This document shows positions 7,043-27,316 of a DNA stretch of 32,225 nucleotides, one piece after another (position 1 is the first letter of the stretch; each line of letters opens with the position of its first letter). The notes under the pieces were generated by a model. It had not been told where the DNA came from and made no database searches. It was given only the letters and a program-made list of their open reading frames with translations. The DNA is from an uncultured Pseudomonadota bacterium (GTDB lineage Bacteria; Pseudomonadota; Gammaproteobacteria; Competibacterales; Competibacteraceae): positions 1-32,225 of the forward strand of contig CAIMUS010000319.1 in assembly GCA_903844665.1 (NCBI GenBank), read 5' to 3'. A program made the position numbers and the translations under genes.

Positions 7043-8056
7043 CCAGCCAGCGCGCTTCAGTTTCCAGTACAGCAGCACGCACCCCACCCCGACCACGCCC
7101 AGCACCACCGGATAGCCGAACGGCCACTTGAGTTCGGGCATATCCGCAAAATTCATCCCATACAGGCTGAACAGCATGGTCGGAATAGCCAGAATCGCGC
7201 CCCAGCCCGCCAGCCGCTTGACCACATCGTTCTGGCGGAAGGTGACCAGCGCCAGATTGACCTGCATGGCGGTCGTCAGCATTTCACGCATATTGTCCGC
7301 CGCCTCCACGATGCGGGTGATATGGTCGTTAATATCGCGGAAATAGACCCGGCCTTCCTTAGAAACGATATCGGGATGCAGGCGCATCAGTCGTGAACAG
7401 ACTTCCAGCAGGGGCTGGACCGCATTACGCACATCCATCAGGCTGCGTTTAAGGTTATAAAATTCCGTGATCACGTGGCGGTCGAAATTACCCTGCAAGG
7501 TCACGGTTTCCAGTTGCTTGAATTTATCTTCGAAGATGTCGATCAGCGGGCGGTAATTGTCCACCACGAAATCCATGACCGCGTAAAGGACAAAGCCGGG
7601 TCCCTCGGCGAGCCGCTGCGGCCGCAGTTCACAATGCTGCCGAACGTTGGTATAGCTGAGCGAAGGGCCATGCCGCACGGTGACGATGAAGCGCTTACCC
7701 ACGAAAATATGGGTTTCGCCGAAGGCGATCACGTCGTCCACCAGCTGCGCGGTTTTCAGCACGATGAACAGCGACTCGCCATATTCCTCCAGCTTGGGCC
7801 GTTGATGGGCGGCGTGGGCGTCCTCGATGGCCAGTTCATGCAGGCTGAATTCTTCCTGGATTTTCCGCAGCACCTCCTCATCCGGTTCGTGCAGGCCCAC
7901 CCAGACAAAGACGCCGTCGCGCTTGAGAAACTCGCTGATATCTTCGACGGTAATGGCGCCAAGCGCTTTGCCGTGCTGGTAGGCAATACAATTGACCACC
8001 TGTTTATCCGGTCCGTAATCTGTTTGGGTAAAGCCGTGCAGTTGCAAAGAACTCAT
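7037..8056 (-). CDS. corA: CorA family Mg2+/Co2+ transporter
   Basis: A 339-residue protein with a large cytoplasmic alpha/beta domain and two C-terminal transmembrane helices. The first helix ends in the ion-selectivity signature YGMNF (within SLYGMNFADMPEL). The second (YPVVLGVVGVGCVLLYW) precedes a basic KLKRAGWL tail facing the cytoplasm. The N-terminal half carries FVWVGLHEP and ELAIEDAHAAHQRPKLEEYG, typical of CorA. CorA forms pentameric channels for Mg2+, Co2+ or Ni2+ uptake. Some CorA relatives (ZntB type) move Zn2+, but the GMN motif favours a CorA assignment. The stop codon TAG lies at the start of a REP-like element. The ATG start fits the family length. Confidence 0.93.
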   Translation of the reverse strand: MSSLQLHGFTQTDYGPDKQVVNCIAYQHGKALGAITVEDISEFLKRDGVFVWVGLHEPDEEVLRKIQEEFSLHELAIEDAHAAHQRPKLEEYGESLFIVLKTAQLVDDVIAFGETHIFVGKRFIVTVRHGPSLSYTNVRQHCELRPQRLAEGPGFVLYAVMDFVVDNYRPLIDIFEDKFKQLETVTLQGNFDRHVITEFYNLKRSLMDVRNAVQPLLEVCSRLMRLHPDIVSKEGRVYFRDINDHITRIVEAADNMREMLTTAMQVNLALVTFRQNDVVKRLAGWGAILAIPTMLFSLYGMNFADMPELKWPFGYPVVLGVVGVGCVLLYWKLKRAGWL

Positions 8057-8355: not shown

Positions 8356-10086
8356 TTAGGCCCTGGCTAGGCGAAAACCCCAGGTGTGGACCCCGGCGCG
8401 CGGGTCGGTCCAGATGCGCGCAGCCCCGCGCACCCCCTGCGGGACGGAGTCCCACGAGCCGCCCCGCAGCACACACGGGCCGCCAGTTTCGCTGCAAGTA
8501 CAACTTAGCTCCTTGCCTCCGTAATCCTTGTCATACTCCGAGCAGGTCCACTCCCACACATTTCCCGCCGTGTCGTACAACCCAAATGGATTTGCTGAAA
8601 AAGAACCTACCGGAGCCGTTTGTTTATTATCCCAGCGACTGCCGCAACCATTGCAGTTAGCCCGATTGCTTCCTATGGCAACCCCCCACCAGTACGGTGC
8701 CTGTATCCCCGCCCGCGCGGCATATTCCCACTCCGCCTCGGTCGGCAGCCGATAACGTTGCCCGGTTTGCTGGGAAAGCCACTTGGCATAAGCGTCTGCA
8801 TCGGACCAGCTTACGATGACGGGTTGTCGGTCACGGCCCCAGCCTTCATCAGCCGGTTTCTCCCGGCCTGTCGCCTCGGCAAAGCGATCATAATCCTCAA
8901 AGGTCACCTCGTATCTGCCGATGGCAAAGCTTTTGATACTCACTGGATGCTGTCGCTCATCGTGACTCCGACCTGCCTCACTCTCCGGCGATCCCATGAG
9001 AAACGTCCCCGCCGGAATCGTCACCATCTCCGGTCCTTGGGAGCCATCACTCAGAGTATCCCGGAACACCCGTCCCGGTTGCGATACTGGCTCTGGCGGT
9101 CGCGTAAAGGGACTTGGCAGTGTTACAGTCGGCGAGGCAGTGGCCACGGGCTTTTGCGGTTGTGTAGCAGGGCTTGGCAGTACGGGAGACGCCCCCGCCG
9201 GCGGAGTGGCGACCACCGGCGGCTCTCGCGGTCGCGTAACGGGAGAAGCTCCTGCCGGCGGAGCGATGGCCACCGGCGCATTGACTGCCGGCGGCGCCAG
9301 ATAAATCGGCGTTCCGCCCAGAGAACCATAGATGTAAGGTTCCTGGACATGATTCGTCATAGCCAGCACCGTATCCCGCACCTGACCGAACAACAGCCGC
9401 ACCTCCAGACCCGGCGTTTCCAGATGCTTCAACAAGGCGGTGGTGAAGGGACTGTGTTCGCCAACACCATCCGCCGCCACCGCATTATCCCGCGTCGCAA
9501 ACGCCACCAGGACATCCGACGGCGTTCTCTCGATGCGCGCCAGCCCCCGCCCAACCGCCACCGAACGGCTCGATCCCATGCTTTGCGCCAGCGTTTGCGT
9601 AAATGGATTATCACGGCAGGAATCCAGAATCACCAGCCCGAGACGGCTGGCCTGGCTGGCCTCTTTCAGCACATCGTCCAGGAGGATCAACCGCCGCAAG
9701 TCCCGCTCCTGATCCAGCCGGGCATCAACCGGCACCAGGTAATTATGTCCGTCCATCTGCATTCCATGACCCGCATAGAACACCAATGCCACCTCGGCCG
9801 CCCTCGCCCGATCGCCGAACTGGCCCAGGATGTCTTCCATCTCCAGCCGATTCAGATCGAACTTTTTCAGTACCGTAAAGCCCAGGCGCTCCAGCGCCGC
9901 CGCCACCGCGCGGGCATCCTTCACCGGGTTTTTCAACTCGGGTGCGTTTTTATAATCCCCATTGCCGATCACCAGGGCCACCCGCCCCGCGGCGAACGCC
10001 GGTGGGGCGGCAAGCAGCGATAACAACAGGATCAGAATCTGTTTGTGTACCTTGCCAAGGTGGCCTATCGACTGTAGGCTTCTCAT
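8356..10086 (-). CDS. Exported caspase-like protease fused to an FGE-sulfatase domain
   Basis: From the ATG at 10086 (AAGGAG 9 nt upstream) the protein has 576 residues. A signal peptide (about 1-33, ILILLLSLLAAPPAFAA) precedes a C14 caspase/metacaspase domain with GRVALVIGNGDYKNAPEL, catalytic His107 in FYAGHGMQ and Cys157 in LDSCRDNP. A Pro/Ala-rich linker (about 275-365) repeats PPAGASPV. The C-terminal domain is the formylglycine-generating-enzyme/SUMF1 fold: MVTIPAGTFLMGSPESE, YRLPTEAEWEYAARAG, GNVWEWTCSEYD, VLRGGSWDS and WGFRLARA. Longer starts up to 10194 lack a signal peptide at the N-terminus. Both caspase catalytic residues are intact. Such fusions are known in Gammaproteobacteria and are proposed to act in conflict or cell-death systems. 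Export to the periplasm, if real, makes this one envelope-facing. Confidence 0.92.
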   Translation of the reverse strand: MRSLQSIGHLGKVHKQILILLLSLLAAPPAFAAGRVALVIGNGDYKNAPELKNPVKDARAVAAALERLGFTVLKKFDLNRLEMEDILGQFGDRARAAEVALVFYAGHGMQMDGHNYLVPVDARLDQERDLRRLILLDDVLKEASQASRLGLVILDSCRDNPFTQTLAQSMGSSRSVAVGRGLARIERTPSDVLVAFATRDNAVAADGVGEHSPFTTALLKHLETPGLEVRLLFGQVRDTVLAMTNHVQEPYIYGSLGGTPIYLAPPAVNAPVAIAPPAGASPVTRPREPPVVATPPAGASPVLPSPATQPQKPVATASPTVTLPSPFTRPPEPVSQPGRVFRDTLSDGSQGPEMVTIPAGTFLMGSPESEAGRSHDERQHPVSIKSFAIGRYEVTFEDYDRFAEATGREKPADEGWGRDRQPVIVSWSDADAYAKWLSQQTGQRYRLPTEAEWEYAARAGIQAPYWWGVAIGSNRANCNGCGSRWDNKQTAPVGSFSANPFGLYDTAGNVWEWTCSEYDKDYGGKELSCTCSETGGPCVLRGGSWDSVPQGVRGAARIWTDPRAGVHTWGFRLARA

Positions 10087-10118
10087 GAATTCACTCCTTC
10101 GTGTACAACTTATCAATC

Positions 10119-10219
10119 GTAGGTCGGGCAAAAGCGAAGCGAAAGCGGCGCGTTGCCCGATAACCGAGGGTGGCCTCGGAGCCACGGCGCACATCGAGCA
10201 CGTCCTGTGCCCGACCTAC
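10119..10219. repeat. Inverted GTAGGTCGGGCA element
   Basis: GTAGGTCGGGCA at 10119-10130 is matched by GCCCGACCTAC at 10209-10219. Between them lie GCGAAGCGAAAGCGGC, GTTGCCCGATAAC and GGTGGCCTCGGAGCCACGG, which form smaller hairpins. It sits 32 bp upstream of the caspase-FGE start codon and may influence that gene's promoter region. GTCGGGTTACGG elements at 22858-23047 belong to a similar class. Confidence 0.75.
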
Positions 10220-11595: not shown

Positions 11596-12408
11596 ATGAT
11601 CTATTCCGGTCCAAGCAAGGTCGAATTCTGTAGCCGTCTGGGGGATGACTGGAAGGCTTTGGCCGACTATCTGGAAATTCGCCCTGCCGACCAGGCCCGC
11701 TTCAAGCACGGCGACGAAGCTCGCGGCATTTGGGAATGGTTGGAAAATCGTGAGCGACTACAGGAACTGCCGGCAGCGCTTCAGCACATCCAGCGGGTCG
11801 ATCTGGTCGGTGTTTTAACAGAGAACCGGCCAACCCCGAAAATCAAAGATATAACCATCGCTGCTCTGATAACCGCCACCTTGATCGGTGCTATCGTGCT
11901 TCTGATCAATCCTGCCTCGCCGCGCATCCAGGTCAGCTACTACTACCGTCCCGCCGGCCAGGATGAATTGCGCACCCTCCCGCCTGGCAGTGAATTGCGT
12001 TCCGGCGATCACTACAAAATCTGGTTCTCGCCGGAGCAGGACAGCCATGTATACATCTTCTATATCGACAGCAATCAGGACATCTACCGCTTGTTTCCAA
12101 TGAAAAGCCTGCAAGGAGTCGCCCTCAATCAAACCAATCCGGTGAAGGCGGGACGCCAGTATCAACTGCCAGCCGACGATAAGGCATTCGTACTCCCGGA
12201 TGATCGGCTGGGTCAGGAAAAGATTTATGTGTTGGTATTTAAAGAATCCAATACGGTGTTGGAACAGTTGTACGACGCCCTCGAACAAGCCCGCCAGCAG
12301 CAGAACACCACCCAGATTGCGGACCGGCAAAATATGCTACTCGCCAAATTACAAAAAGAGGCGCCGGCTGTTCCCACATTTACGTTCGTCCATCTGGAAA
12401 AGAAATAA
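11596..12408 (+). CDS. Membrane protein with death-fold-like effector-associated domain and DUF4384
   Basis: A 270-residue protein of three parts. Residues about 8-75 (FCSRLGDDWKALADYLEI, ARGIWEWLENRERLQELPAA, IQRVDL) have the all-helical pattern of bacterial death-like or effector-associated domains (EADs), which recruit partners with matching EADs. A transmembrane helix follows at about 86-104 (ITIAALITATLIGAIVLLI). The C-terminal part (about 128-215; SGDHYKIWFSPEQDSHVYIF, YRLFPMKSLQG) is DUF4384, predicted to be periplasmic, followed by a Gln-rich helix. Topology would join a cytoplasmic adaptor to an envelope sensor. It is followed after 6 nt by a lipoprotein gene encoding a DUF4384 paralogue, so the two likely form an operon. 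The EAD assignment is by pattern only and is less certain than DUF4384. Confidence 0.72.
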   Translation: MIYSGPSKVEFCSRLGDDWKALADYLEIRPADQARFKHGDEARGIWEWLENRERLQELPAALQHIQRVDLVGVLTENRPTPKIKDITIAALITATLIGAIVLLINPASPRIQVSYYYRPAGQDELRTLPPGSELRSGDHYKIWFSPEQDSHVYIFYIDSNQDIYRLFPMKSLQGVALNQTNPVKAGRQYQLPADDKAFVLPDDRLGQEKIYVLVFKESNTVLEQLYDALEQARQQQNTTQIADRQNMLLAKLQKEAPAVPTFTFVHLEKK

Positions 12409-12414
12409 CACGCT

Positions 12415-13059
12415 ATGAAACGTGTCGGTTACTTTCGCTACCCAGCGGTGTTGCTGGTTTGCGCGCTCAGCGCTGGCTGCGCCTCCCCCAGCCGTGGTCT
12501 TCCAGGCATCGCCTACGATCCCGGAGCCTCGAAACTGCTTAATTTTCAAGAGAGTTACAAATACTGGGCTGGAGACCAAGGCGCGTTCAAGCCCTTCATG
12601 AACGGTGCCGTGCTGTATTCCGGCGATCATTACATCATTCAATTTACGCCCAGTGAAGACAGCTATGTCTATATCTTCCAGATCGACAGCAATCAGGGAG
12701 TCAATCAATTATTTCCCATGGAAAGCTTCAAGGGCGTGAAGCTCGACAATCGCAATCCGGTGCAGGCTGGTATGACCTATATTCTGCCCGCCCAGAATAA
12801 ATCATTCGTGTTGGATGATCGGACCGGGCGGGAAACCATCTATTTCATGGCCTCCCGACAGCCCGATCAGACGCTTCAAGAGCAATATGAAGCCCTGTCC
12901 CAGGCGCGGCAGGAGCAGAGAGCCAGCCTGATCAAGCAATTACAGGAGCAGTTGACAACCAGCATAAAAACACGCGGACTGGGCACAGTCGTATCGAATC
13001 AGGCCCAGGGCGCCCGGCGGGCGGAGCAGGTGAGCGTCGTCACGTTCGAGCATCGCTAA
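12415..13059 (+). CDS. DUF4384 domain lipoprotein
   Basis: A 214-residue protein with a lipoprotein signal peptide (VLLVCALSAGC, lipidated Cys22), so probably held in the outer or inner membrane facing the periplasm. The DUF4384 domain (about 65-165) contains SGDHYIIQFTPSEDSYVYIF, QIDSNQGVNQLFPMES and NPVQAGMTYILPA. It aligns block by block with the upstream protein's C-terminal half, including the EQYEALSQARQEQ tail, so the two arose by duplication. It begins 6 nt after the upstream stop. DUF4384 is often found beside or fused to caspase-like proteases (family knowledge), which fits the caspase-FGE gene 2.3 kb away. Ligand unknown. Confidence 0.82.
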   Translation: MKRVGYFRYPAVLLVCALSAGCASPSRGLPGIAYDPGASKLLNFQESYKYWAGDQGAFKPFMNGAVLYSGDHYIIQFTPSEDSYVYIFQIDSNQGVNQLFPMESFKGVKLDNRNPVQAGMTYILPAQNKSFVLDDRTGRETIYFMASRQPDQTLQEQYEALSQARQEQRASLIKQLQEQLTTSIKTRGLGTVVSNQAQGARRAEQVSVVTFEHR

Positions 13060-22857: not shown

Positions 22858-23047
22858 GTCGGGTTACGGCGCGCCCACAAAGTCTCTGCCATCTCCAGGC
22901 CTGGCTGAAGGCGCGCCTAACTGGTCATGCTTTTCGGAGAGAAGCACTCCCAGTGATGAAAATCGGCCCATACGTCGGGTTACGGTGCGCCCGCCAGGTT
23001 TCTGCTATCTCCAGGCTTGGCGGAAGGGCGCACCTAACCCGACCTAC
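22858..23047. repeat. Two related GTCGGGTTACGG palindromic units
   Basis: Unit A (22858-22922) and unit B (22974-23043) are about 65 bp each and share GGGTTACGG-GCGCCC, TCTCCAGGC and GGCGC-CCTAAC blocks. Unit B is a palindrome: GTCGGGTTACGGTGCGCCC against GGGCGCACCTAACCCGAC. The pair fills most of the 384-bp gap between the oxygenase and the sulfotransferase, together with the tandem repeat at 23037-23090. The remaining 22731-22857 shows no gene or signal I can name. Confidence 0.8.
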
Positions 23048-23090
23048 GGGGATTTTCACGGTAACCCGACCTACGAGGATTTTCACGGTA
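23037..23090. repeat. 27-bp tandem repeat, two copies
   Basis: ACCCGACCTACG-GATTTTCACGGTA is present twice back to back (23037-23063 and 23064-23090) with one mismatch. The first copy overlaps the end of the preceding palindromic unit. It ends 24 bp before the sulfotransferase start, close enough to affect its promoter or ribosome access. Confidence 0.85.
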
Positions 23091-23114
23091 ACAACGAACT
23101 AAGGTAACACTGCC

Positions 23115-24038
23115 ATGCATACGATCATCAAAAAAATCACGCGGGAAGCCACTTTGTTGGCGCTCTTTTTCCTTCCCAAGGAAAAAAAGATACGCATCGA
23201 GCGCCGGCTGCGCGGTCGCGAGGAATTCCACCGCCTGCAACAGGCGGATTGCGTTATCGTCTCCTTTGGCAAAAGCGGTCGTACCTGGCTGCGCGTCATG
23301 CTGTCGCGGTTCTATCAGGTGAAACACAACCTGTCCCGGCGCAGTTTTCTCGGCTTCGATAATTTTCATCGCAAGAACCCGGCCATTCCCAAGGTGTTCT
23401 TCACTCACGACAATTATCTGAAGGATTATACCGAGCATAAGGATTCCAAAGTCGATTTCTACGACAAGAAGGTCGTTCTGCTGGCGCGCGACCCGCGCGA
23501 CGTGGCGGTATCGCAATTTTTCCAGTGGAAGTATCGGATGCGGCCGCATAAGAAAGGGTTAAACAACTATCCAGATCATCAGCAGGACATTTCGGTCTAT
23601 GACTTCGTCATCGACCCCGACGCCGGTCTGCCCAAGATTATCGACTTTATGAACGACTGGGCGCGGGAGCTGCCCCGGATCGAAAATATGCTGATCGTGC
23701 GGTATGAGGACATGCGGGCGCAGCCGGAGGCGGTATTGAAGCAGATTGTCGAGTTCATGGGGACGCCCGGCTCGACGGAAGATATTCGCGAGGCGGTAAC
23801 TTTTGCCTCTTACGACAATATGAAGAAACTGGAAGAGAAGAAAATATTCTGGCTGAGCGGCAACCGGCTGGTGCCCAAGGACAAGAGCAATCCCAATTCC
23901 TTTAAGGTGCGCCGGGCCAAGGTGGGCGGTTATCGCGATTATTTCGATGATCGGCAGGTGGCGGCAATCGATGCCCAGGTGCATGACAGGCTGGCGCCGC
24001 TGTATGGTTATAGCAGCGACAGCGCTCCTGCCGGGTGA
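23115..24038 (+). CDS. Sulfotransferase domain protein
   Basis: A 307-residue PAPS-dependent sulfotransferase. The 5'-phosphosulfate loop is SFGKSGRTWLRVML (50-63). The 3'-phosphate-binding motif is LLARDPRDVAVSQFFQWKY (about 122-140), and the C-terminal KVGGYRDYFDDRQ matches the RKGxxGDW-type motif. FFTHDNY around residue 98 could give the catalytic His. LPRIENMLIVRYEDMRAQPE is the usual second-half block. It transfers sulfate from PAPS to a sugar, lipid or protein hydroxyl. The N-terminus has one hydrophobic run (ATLLALFFLP) but no cleavage site, so it is probably cytoplasmic or peripherally bound. Neighbouring ELM1-family and oxygenase genes suggest glycan or surface-molecule modification. 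Confidence 0.9.
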   Translation: MHTIIKKITREATLLALFFLPKEKKIRIERRLRGREEFHRLQQADCVIVSFGKSGRTWLRVMLSRFYQVKHNLSRRSFLGFDNFHRKNPAIPKVFFTHDNYLKDYTEHKDSKVDFYDKKVVLLARDPRDVAVSQFFQWKYRMRPHKKGLNNYPDHQQDISVYDFVIDPDAGLPKIIDFMNDWARELPRIENMLIVRYEDMRAQPEAVLKQIVEFMGTPGSTEDIREAVTFASYDNMKKLEEKKIFWLSGNRLVPKDKSNPNSFKVRRAKVGGYRDYFDDRQVAAIDAQVHDRLAPLYGYSSDSAPAG

Positions 24039-24165: not shown

Positions 24166-24564
24166 ATGGATACACTCTCCTTAAGAAATGATATCGACAA
24201 ACCATCCCGCCAGAATGCTGAGCGGCAATCATCCCAGACCTCGACCAAGCCAGCGTCTAACGTGCTGCAGGCGAATTTCCTGGGCAACTTGATCGGCCAT
24301 ACAGTCACCGTCTATCTGGTCAATGGCATCCGTCTGTCCGGCCAGCTCCAGCAAATGGACCAGTACACCCTGTTGTTGGGTGGAGCGGAGGGGGGGCCAC
24401 CCCAGTTGGTATTCAAGCATGCGATCAGCACCATCCAGCCCGCCGATACGGGCGGAGGCGGCCACCGCTGGCCTCCGGGCAGGATGAGCCGCAATCGCCT
24501 GCCGGAACGGGATTACAACCGGGCGGTAAGAGATACGGAGGACACTCAGACCGAGGACTACTAA
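24166..24564 (+). CDS. Divergent Hfq-like Sm-fold RNA-binding protein
   Basis: Residues about 34-92 of this 132-residue protein match Hfq: LQANFLGNLIGHTVTVYLVN and GIRLSGQLQQMDQYTLLL form the Sm1 motif, and LVFKHAISTIQP is the Sm2 motif, with the YKHA signature changed to FKHA. Between them lies a longer loop, GGAEGGPPQ. It has a 33-residue polar N-terminal extension and a 40-residue Arg/Asp-rich C-terminal tail, whereas canonical Hfq has almost no N-terminal extension. Canonical hfq normally sits by miaA-hflX; this gene instead follows a sulfotransferase and precedes a REP-like element, so it is probably a second, specialised paralogue. A weak AAGG lies before the ATG. RNA binding is inferred, not shown. 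Confidence 0.85.
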   Translation: MDTLSLRNDIDKPSRQNAERQSSQTSTKPASNVLQANFLGNLIGHTVTVYLVNGIRLSGQLQQMDQYTLLLGGAEGGPPQLVFKHAISTIQPADTGGGGHRWPPGRMSRNRLPERDYNRAVRDTEDTQTEDY

Positions 24565-24604: not shown

Positions 24605-24680
24605 TGTAGGAGCGAGCTTGCTCGCGAAGGGAGCGGTCACCAGCAAGCTGGTGTTGTTCGCGAGCAAGCTCGCTCCTACA
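24605..24680. repeat. REP-like palindromic element, copy 2
   Basis: TGTAGGAGCGAGCTTGCTCG (24605-24624) and its inverse CGAGCAAGCTCGCTCCTACA (24661-24680) flank GGAGCGGTCACCAGCAAGC. It equals the reverse complement of 395-466 apart from a few central changes. It begins 40 nt after the Hfq-like stop. The rest of the 410-bp gap (24681-24975) holds a minus-strand terminator and no supported gene. Confidence 0.85.
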
Positions 24681-24975: not shown

Positions 24976-25455
24976 TCAGCTCACCGCTGTCCCTGGCGGT
25001 CCTGCCGACCGTAACGTGAACAGAATCTGGACCCATCCATCCCGCCGCGCCAGGTGCGCATGGCGCCAGTGGGTCGCCAGCCCGATCAGAGCCCGCCACT
25101 CCGCCGGTTCGATTTGCAGCACCTCCAGCAGGTCTCGCGCGGCGGCCAGATCTCGCAATCCTTCGGGAAGATCATAGCGGCCGCGGATGACCTCCAGGGG
25201 ATCGTCCACCTGATAAGGGTCCGGCGCCGGCTCGCTCACCTGCCCGGCCAGATAGCCCATCGACACGCCCAGGGCATCGACCAAACGTTTGAGCACAGCG
25301 AAACTGATGCCGCGATCCTGCTTTTCCAGGTAGCTGATATAGGACTGATCGACACCGATCTTCCCGGCCAGCTTATGTTGGGTCAGTCTGGCCGCCTGCC
25401 GCGCCTGCCGCAGCCGGCTATGGTCCAGTTTATTGTCGCTATTCTCGTCGCTCAT
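24976..25455 (-). CDS. XRE/Cro-type transcriptional regulator
   Basis: From the ATG at 25455 the protein has 159 residues. The HTH_3 domain lies near the N-terminus (about 12-68): RLRQARQAARLTQHKLAGKI, GVDQSYISYLEKQDRGISF and LKRLVDALGVSMGYLAG. The C-terminal half (PYQVDDPLEVIRGRYDLPEG, EWRALIGLATHWRHAHLARR) is a helical region I cannot assign. A TTG at 25467 would add four residues. It is divergent from the Toprim gene, 100 bp apart, and probably controls it and itself. An intrinsic terminator follows. This is the standard layout of a repressor with a replication or mobile-element gene. Confidence 0.9.
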   Translation of the reverse strand: MSDENSDNKLDHSRLRQARQAARLTQHKLAGKIGVDQSYISYLEKQDRGISFAVLKRLVDALGVSMGYLAGQVSEPAPDPYQVDDPLEVIRGRYDLPEGLRDLAAARDLLEVLQIEPAEWRALIGLATHWRHAHLARRDGWVQILFTLRSAGPPGTAVS

Positions 25456-25557
25456 GGGAGGAAACAACAGCCATCGGTTCAGGTTGAAAGCTCTGGATAA
25501 GCAGGAATTAATGATTTATTATTATAAAATGATTTGAATATTAATCAAAGGCTGATT

Positions 25558-26583
25558 ATGTTAGCCGCCAGATCGGGTCCTGTCGCCAGTTGTTATCGTG
25601 ATCCTCCGAACCGGATCGAACCGGAGACCCGCTTGCGGGCGGCATTAAAGCAGGCGGGCCAGCCTTACGAAGGGCCGTTCCGATATGGCGAATTCATCCG
25701 TTATGGCGACAAGGGCAGGAGCCGGCCCTGCTGGCTGATCATTCACCAGTTTGGCAACGGCCATCTGACAGCCGTATTCGGCGATTGGCGGCAAGGCTCC
25801 CGGCACGAGTTCAGGTCCTGGAGCGATGCTGCTTTTTCCTTCCCGATGGAATGGCGGCGCGAACTGGAGGAGTGGCGATGTCGGCAGGAGGCGGCGGTCG
25901 CCGCCAGACAGGCGCAGGCCGCCCGGCTGGCGGCGGAGCTATGGGGGCGGCTGGCGCTCACGGGTAACCACCCCTATCTGGAACGCAAGCAGGTTCCCGC
26001 CATGGGAGTGCGCTTCGGTTCCGACGAGCAGGGTCGCGGTCCCTGCCTGGTGATCCCGCTACGCAAACCGGGCGAGGCGCTCACCAGCTTGCAGTTTATC
26101 TATCCCGACGGCCGCAAGCACTTTCTGCGCGGCGGCGCCAAGAAAGGGGCGTTCCACGTTCTGGGCGGGATCGGCCCGGACAGCCTGCTCTATCTGGCGG
26201 AAGGTTATGCCACGGCAGCCAGTCTGCATCTGGCGACCGGCCGGCCGGCGGTGGTGGCCTTCGATGCCGGCAATCTGGCGGCGGTGGCGGCGGCGCTCCG
26301 ACGCATCTATCCGGCTGCCCGGTTGGTGCTGGCGGCGGACAACGATCGATGGAAAGCCGCCGAGATCGGCCCGGATGGCCGCCCCAAGGGTAACACCGGG
26401 GTCATGAAAGCCGCGGCGGTGGCCCGGCAATACGGCGCCTACCTGGTCGTGCCCGATTTCACCGGCCTGGATACCCATGACAGGCCGACCGATTTCAATG
26501 ATCTGGCGCGGCTGGCCGGTCTGGAGGAGGTAAGGCGGCAGCTTTCGCGTCCTGTGCGGCCAGGGCGGCCTTTTTCGCCTTGA
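25558..26583 (+). CDS. Toprim domain primase-like protein
   Basis: A 341-residue protein, ATG at 25558 with AAAGG about 7 nt upstream. Residues 20-90 form an N-terminal region with [11 protein letters not shown] and [19 protein letters not shown], as in plasmid and phage primase-helicase N-termini. Residues 135-205 include [34 protein letters not shown] and [14 protein letters not shown]. The Toprim core follows: Glu215 in [14 protein letters not shown] and Asp261-x-Asp263 in LVLAADND, with [12 protein letters not shown] at the end. No helicase motif is present, so it is the primase half only. Its last 89 bp overlap rnfB on the other strand. The divergent XRE regulator suggests origin from an integrated plasmid or phage. 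Confidence 0.85.
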
Positions 26584-27193
26584 CGCGGGCGACCGCCGCC
26601 TGAATCGCCTGTTTCAATTCATCCCGGCTGGGGGTGGAGGTTGCCCTGGTGGTGGCCGCTGTCTTGCTGCGCAGACGGGCTTCTTTCTCCTGCCGGTCGC
26701 GTTCCAGCCGGGCCAGGCGGGCGGTGTGGCGGCGGCGGGCGCGATCGGCCCGTTGTCGATCCCATTCCGGGGGTTGGGCGGGTTGCAGCGTGATGCAGTC
26801 GACCGGGCAGGGAGGAAGGCATAATTCGCAGCCGGTGCACTCCTGGGCGATGACCGTATGCATTTGTTTGGCCGCTCCCAGAATAGCGTCCACCGGACAG
26901 GCCTGAATGCACAGGGTACAGCCGATACAGGCTGGTTCGTCGATGACCGCCACCTGTCTGGGCTGGTGAACGCCGTGCGTCGGGTTCAGCGGCTTGGGGG
27001 CGCGGTCCAGGACAGCGGCCAGCGCCTCAATGACCGCCTCTCCGCCCGGCGGACATTGGTTAATATCCGCCTGGCCGGTGGCGATGGCTGTCGCATAAGG
27101 ACGGCAGCCGGCAAAGCCGCATTGCCGGCACTGGGTCTGCGGCAACAGCGCATCGATCCGCTCGGCAATGGGGTCGGGTTCGACCTGGGACAA
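26495..27193 (-). CDS. rnfB: RnfB/RsxB-like electron-transfer ferredoxin, without membrane anchor
   Basis: Starting at TTG 27193 (GAGGT 7 nt upstream) the 232-residue protein opens [20 protein letters not shown]. Cys22, 25, 30 and 47 ([15 protein letters not shown]) bind one [4Fe-4S] cluster in the Fe-S/FeS4 domain. Two ferredoxin motifs follow: [16 protein letters not shown] and [16 protein letters not shown]. The C-terminal 90 residues are an Arg/Lys/Ala-rich helical tail. RnfB passes electrons in the Rnf/Rsx complex. The usual N-terminal membrane helix is absent, as in some betaproteobacterial RsxB, and no other rnf gene is near. A longer frame from 27292 reads through an intergenic palindrome (27216-27316), so it is rejected. 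The last 89 bp are antisense to the Toprim gene. Confidence 0.86.
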
Positions 27194-27215
27194 CGCGATG
27201 ACCTCGTGAATGACT

Positions 27216-27316
27216 GTAGAGCCGGCATCTTGCCGGCTAAAGTTGTTAAGGGTGGGCAGCTTGTCTGCCCACGCGGGTTGTCTGGGTATCAACAGCCGGC
27301 AAAATGCCGGCGCTAC
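27216..27316. repeat. Inverted GTAGAGCCGGCA element
   Basis: GTAGAGCCGGCATCTTGCCGGC at the left and GCCGGCAAAATGCCGGCGCTAC at the right are inverted copies. Between them GGGTGGGCAGCTTGTCTGCCCAC forms a second hairpin. The element lies just upstream of the proposed rnfB start and extends the open frame by chance. Confidence 0.75.

Follow-up and report, generated by a model that had tools for sequence, protein, structure and literature searches.

Introduction

The lateral rim of canonical Hfq carries an Arg/Lys patch that drives sRNA-mRNA annealing; the rim arginines set the annealing rate independently of the other Hfq faces, and RNA has to compete for the rim with the protein's acidic C-terminal tip (PMC10628458). 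Departures from this design are known in Bacillus anthracis, where the divergent Hfq1 fails to form rings and Hfq3 has a rim of IEEQ in place of RRER and an effect that depends on its distal face (PMC5348863). Here we analyze an Hfq-family gene from a 32,225-nt stretch of DNA (the window, contig C319) of an uncultured Competibacteraceae bacterium, whose product has lost this rim patch. An earlier note, made from the letters alone, had proposed that the gene is an extended, specialised Hfq-like paralogue.

Results

A divergent Hfq with a predicted Sm fold

The window gene starts with ATG, preceded at a spacing of 8 nt by a putative Shine-Dalgarno sequence (AAAGG) that can be read directly from the DNA. 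Codon statistics score its frame at 0.13, versus −0.47 and −0.37 for the other two forward frames; GC3 is 0.72, and the N-terminal 33 codons are less genome-like at −0.24. In a profile search, residues 45–94 match the Pfam Hfq family PF17209 at 57 bits (1.5e-15), above the curated cut-off of 27 bits. The two NCBIfam Hfq models give 58.8 bits (equivalog cut-off 95) and 54.1 bits (cut-off 61.7), both below threshold. Because the Pfam cut-off is exceeded but the NCBIfam equivalog cut-offs are not reached, the protein is, by its profile scores, a divergent member of the Hfq family.

An AlphaFold2 model of the monomer, built from an eight-sequence alignment, has a core with pLDDT of about 90–95 (residues 41–90) and low confidence at both ends. 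Its modelled secondary structure follows the Hfq order, with a helix (H31–41) and then five strands. Every match listed by Foldseek is a solved Hfq chain, and VIA-align 2 superposes the model on solved Hfq chains with Z up to 10.9 and an rmsd of 1.9 over 64 residues. The model thus supports an Hfq Sm fold consisting of an N-terminal helix and a five-stranded barrel. Together, the reading frame, the Pfam score and the predicted fold bear out the extended Hfq-like ORF described in the earlier note and support an Hfq Sm fold.

The features singled out in that note are less distinctive than it had suggested. The Hfq core (LQxxFL) begins at residue 34, so the 33 preceding residues are real, but the genome's canonical Hfq itself has 6 residues ahead of its LQ, which leaves a net excess of about 27. 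The GGAEGGPPQ segment is present as well, but it corresponds to loop L4 and is 3 residues longer than in the genome's own canonical Hfq. The FKHA variant is no special feature, since it recurs in six other Hfqs (L061, L063, L066, L067, L072 and L093). The same applies to the charged C-terminal tail (40 residues with 7 Lys/Arg and 8 Asp/Glu), as the genome's canonical Hfq also has an acidic end.

Table 1 Features of the window gene and its immediate surroundings (window coordinates).
Feature	Position	Strand	Basis or description
Divergent Hfq paralogue, 132 aa	24166..24564	+	PF17209, 57 bits; AlphaFold2; VIA-align Z up to 10.9
N-terminal extension, residues 1–33	24166..24264	+	Predicted disordered, pLDDT about 55–63
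Rim segment N41–H45	24286..24300	+	Replaces R16-K17-E18-R19; 2 residues shorter, without Arg/Lys
Sm core: Sm1, loop L4 with GGAEGGPPQ, Sm2 FKHAIST	24301..24441	+	Pfam, alignment, AlphaFold2
C-terminal tail: Arg-rich, then acidic tip DTEDTQTEDY	24442..24561	+	Predicted disordered, pLDDT about 50–65
Sulfotransferase	23115..24038	+	PF00685, 94.8 bits; 127 nt upstream of the window gene
REP-type palindromic pair	24605..24680	.	24-nt arms, 28 nt apart; about 40 nt downstream

Lateral rim and RNA-binding faces

In the alignment to canonical Hfq, the rim sequence R16-K17-E18-R19 (RKER) is replaced in the window protein by IGH and a two-residue deletion. A sister paralogue on contig C34 has LDR at this position and has likewise lost two residues. 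The rim segment holds 0–1 Lys/Arg in the two paralogues and at least 2 in 72 of the 76 other Hfq rows; among all 78 rows, only the window protein and L043 have none. The rim arginine patch (R16/R17/R19) that identifies canonical Gram-negative Hfq is accordingly missing from the window protein. L043, which reads DALCAQQVQ, comes from another gammaproteobacterium (G102), for which no other match is shown.

Most residues of the two RNA-binding faces are kept (E. coli numbering throughout). On the distal face, Y25, N28, G29, I30, L32, Q52 and T61 are unchanged, and K31, Q33 and N48 are replaced by Arg, Ser and Gly, respectively. On the proximal face, Q8, Q41, K56 and H57 are unchanged, and F42, F39 and D9 become Tyr, Met and Ala. 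In the window protein's own numbering, the Sm2 KHA motif and the proximal pocket are represented by F83, K84, H85, A86, Q35 and Q66. Judged from the alignment, the distinctive change in both paralogues is the disappearance of the rim Arg/Lys patch with the distal and proximal residues mostly retained. The altered RNA handling suggested earlier is therefore a reasonable inference, but its basis is the loss of the rim patch in both copies; the earlier note had mentioned neither this loss nor the sister paralogue.

Three Hfq loci in one genome

The genome assembly (348 contigs, 98.9% complete, 1.7% contamination) contains three Hfq loci: a canonical gene on C101, the window gene on C319 and the sister gene on C34. 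The canonical hfq encodes 83 aa and lies within miaA-hfq-hflX-hflK-hflC-purA, so the place between miaA and hflX is occupied by this gene and the window gene lies outside it. Since a canonical hfq is present on another contig, the window gene is a paralogue, as the earlier note had supposed; the search beside miaA that it proposed finds the canonical gene on C101, which rules out the window gene as the genome's sole Hfq. Wrong binning of C319 is unlikely: rnfB is conserved in most genomes of the family, ruvB is 79–84% identical to the family's ruvB, and C319 shares its REP elements with C34 and many other contigs.

The sister gene encodes 113 aa, with an ATG at position 7685 and GGAG 8 nt upstream. 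Its product is 50% identical to the window protein over 76 aa; the window and canonical proteins share 48% identity, over 46 aa only. The two paralogues pair in the tree with support of 95/85. Their N-terminal extensions are equal in length (33 residues in the window protein, 34 in the sister) and of marginal sequence likeness (shuffle P 0.05 global, 0.64 local). Across 41 codons, the two genes differ at 17/9/22 sites at codon positions 1/2/3, with a dN of 0.32, a dS of about 2.3, which is near saturation, and a ratio of about 0.14. This ratio suggests that both genes are functional and are kept as proteins under purifying selection. At the sister locus L079 (G000:C34, 4471–8026), the paralogue adjoins a DUF2282–MbnB/TglH/ChrH–DUF2063–DoxX cluster that resembles a RiPP operon of the bufferin type.

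Genomic surroundings

For the sulfotransferase next to the window gene, which the earlier note had taken as a clue, there is no sign of a functional link to the Hfq. The REP 23-mer downstream has 145 copies in the genome at no more than 2 mismatches; in the window, REP elements (GTAGGAGCGAGCTTGCTCGCGAA) lie at 444–466 as well as in the pair listed in Table 1, and many of the genome copies are inverted pairs about 50 nt apart. Rfam matched no RNA element in the window or in the sister locus. Next to the paralogue, positions 24976–26583 encode an XRE-type regulator and a Toprim_3 primase-like protein, possibly mobile-element remnants. An RnfB-like ferredoxin protein (26495–27292, minus strand) is encoded next to patatin and Toprim genes. 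Most of the family has its sequence conserved at the nucleotide level, and at least one relative seemingly has an rnfA-like gene alongside. Positions 22858–23093 hold a dispersed repeat, up to about 240 bp long, with internal 54-nt and 27-nt direct repeats; copies at 85–94% identity are present on at least six further contigs, in two cases at the contig start. Farther away, 8356–10194 (minus strand) and 11596–13059 (plus strand) cover a protein with both caspase-like (Peptidase_C14) and FGE-sulfatase domains, beside one DUF4384 protein that carries a bacterial death-like domain (bDLD3) and a second DUF4384 protein. This group resembles a bacterial module for cell death or defence.

The queG-nnr-tsaE-amiB genes end 4.1 kb upstream of the window Hfq gene. 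The outgroup genome G037 carries nnr-tsaE-amiB and miaA-hfq-hflX-hflK-hflC-purA together on a single contig, where hfq follows the amiB core at a distance of about 3.6 kb. Given this proximity, the window locus is possibly a relict of an old hfq place. That reading stays a conjecture, since the paralogue is absent from all four family genomes with a strong amiB match (G003, G006, G013 and G017).

Distribution and origin

Among 40 genomes of the order, the paralogues are present in this genome only. Samples of 369 class and 398 phylum genomes yielded nothing better than ordinary Hfqs, and searches of viral contigs, genome contigs and phages found no close relative. Three pattern matches in genome contigs were not Hfq, and a long open frame in G118 apparently owes its length only to in-frame sequence that precedes an ordinary Hfq start. 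A phage-borne origin was rejected because the phage search gave only distant or canonical Hfqs.

Outside this genome, the nearest relatives are accessory Hfqs encoded by Paraburkholderia megaplasmids, with 59% identity over 58 core columns. These sequences have a small regulator-like gene directly downstream on the opposite strand (XRE in L063, a similar ORF in L067). One account of the origin is that an accessory Hfq was gained by horizontal transfer from a Burkholderiales megaplasmid lineage and serves the mobile or variable region with which it arrived. The plasmid Hfqs are the nearest relatives and group with the paralogues in the tree, the genes are missing from the remaining 39 genomes examined in the order, and Toprim and XRE genes adjoin the window gene. 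However, the grouping is weakly supported (50/87), the tree test does not reject a clade joining the paralogues to canonical Hfqs of the family itself (p-AU 0.129), the GC3 of the window gene fits the host, and no integrase was recognised beside it. The phylogeny that the earlier note had called for pairs the two paralogues with support but leaves their wider placement weak, and the tree fits transfer or local duplication alike. We regard transfer as a tentative account, at less than even odds.

Discussion

The best explanation of these observations, to which we assign a probability of about 0.5, is that the window gene encodes a ring-forming accessory Hfq that binds RNA without annealing it. 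The paralogue would still form a hexameric ring and, with most face residues kept, would bind A-rich RNA distally and U-rich 3′ ends proximally. Because both faces are kept, the rim patch is gone and rim arginines set the annealing rate, RNA would be bound without being matched, and sRNA-mRNA annealing by the paralogue would be little or none. Such a protein would hold, protect or sequester transcripts, or compete for them with canonical Hfq, and the disordered Arg-rich C-terminal tail and the N-terminal extension may tune contacts with RNA or partners. Counting against this explanation, the apparently ordinary Hfq L043 likewise has no rim Lys/Arg; the Arg-rich tail could also partly replace the basic charge of the rim, and B. 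anthracis Hfq1 is an example of a divergent Hfq that makes no rings (PMC5348863). Transfer from a plasmid lineage concerns origin and can be combined with an RNA-holding role.

Alternatively, the paralogue may join canonical Hfq subunits in mixed rings, or poison rings as a monomer, so that Hfq activity is lowered or redirected. The interface strands β4 and β5 are well preserved (QLVFKHAISTIQP versus QMIYKHAISTVVP), and B. anthracis Hfq1 offers a precedent as a dominant-negative monomer (PMC5348863), but the paralogue core also suits a self-made ring, and we consider this alternative unlikely. That the paralogue is a decaying duplicate without function is very unlikely, for although its distribution is patchy, its residues are divergent and its N-terminal codons atypical, both ORFs are intact, each has a ribosome-binding site, and the codon-position differences (17/9/22) and dN/dS of about 0.14 point the other way.

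If the accessory RNA-binding role is correct, these natural Hfqs, which keep both faces but not the rim, would uncouple binding from annealing with no need for laboratory mutation and beside a normal Hfq, so that one could ask what role is left to an accessory Hfq unable to pair RNAs. A bolder proposal, that a genus-specific rim-less pair forms a dedicated RNA-holding or Hfq-antagonising system and gives one gammaproteobacterium three functionally divided Hfqs, seems doubtful to us.

Comparison with known Hfqs

Accessory Hfqs are already known from Burkholderia (Hfq2, PMC7074383) and B. anthracis (PMC5348863), and the window gene is a modest novelty. With canonical E. coli Hfq it has in common the Sm core, N-terminal helix, KHA motif, pocket residues and acidic C-terminal tip; it differs in about 27 extra N-terminal residues, an L4 loop longer by 3, an Arg-rich tail, the loss of the rim patch with a two-residue deletion, and a location outside miaA-hflX. 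Burkholderia cenocepacia Hfq2 likewise accompanies a canonical Hfq in a proteobacterium as a second, divergent copy, but it is 175–216 aa long and its Gly-rich extension is C-terminal rather than N-terminal (PMC7074383); the window protein, at 132 aa with a 40-residue tail, has no such long Gly-rich end. B. anthracis Hfq3, encoded on pXO1, is also an accessory protein, one of three Hfqs, and without the rim arginine patch, but it belongs to a Gram-positive bacterium and is plasmid-borne, with a very short C-terminal tail and no reported N-terminal extension (PMC5348863). The Paraburkholderia plasmid Hfqs (PGU19 p3 and P. hospita pmHSR1_P) share NGIRLSGQL, FKHAIST and a weak rim (VSDK, VNDK) with the window protein, and differ from it in their plasmid location, in having no N-terminal extension of this length and in retaining the two rim residues that the paralogue has lost.
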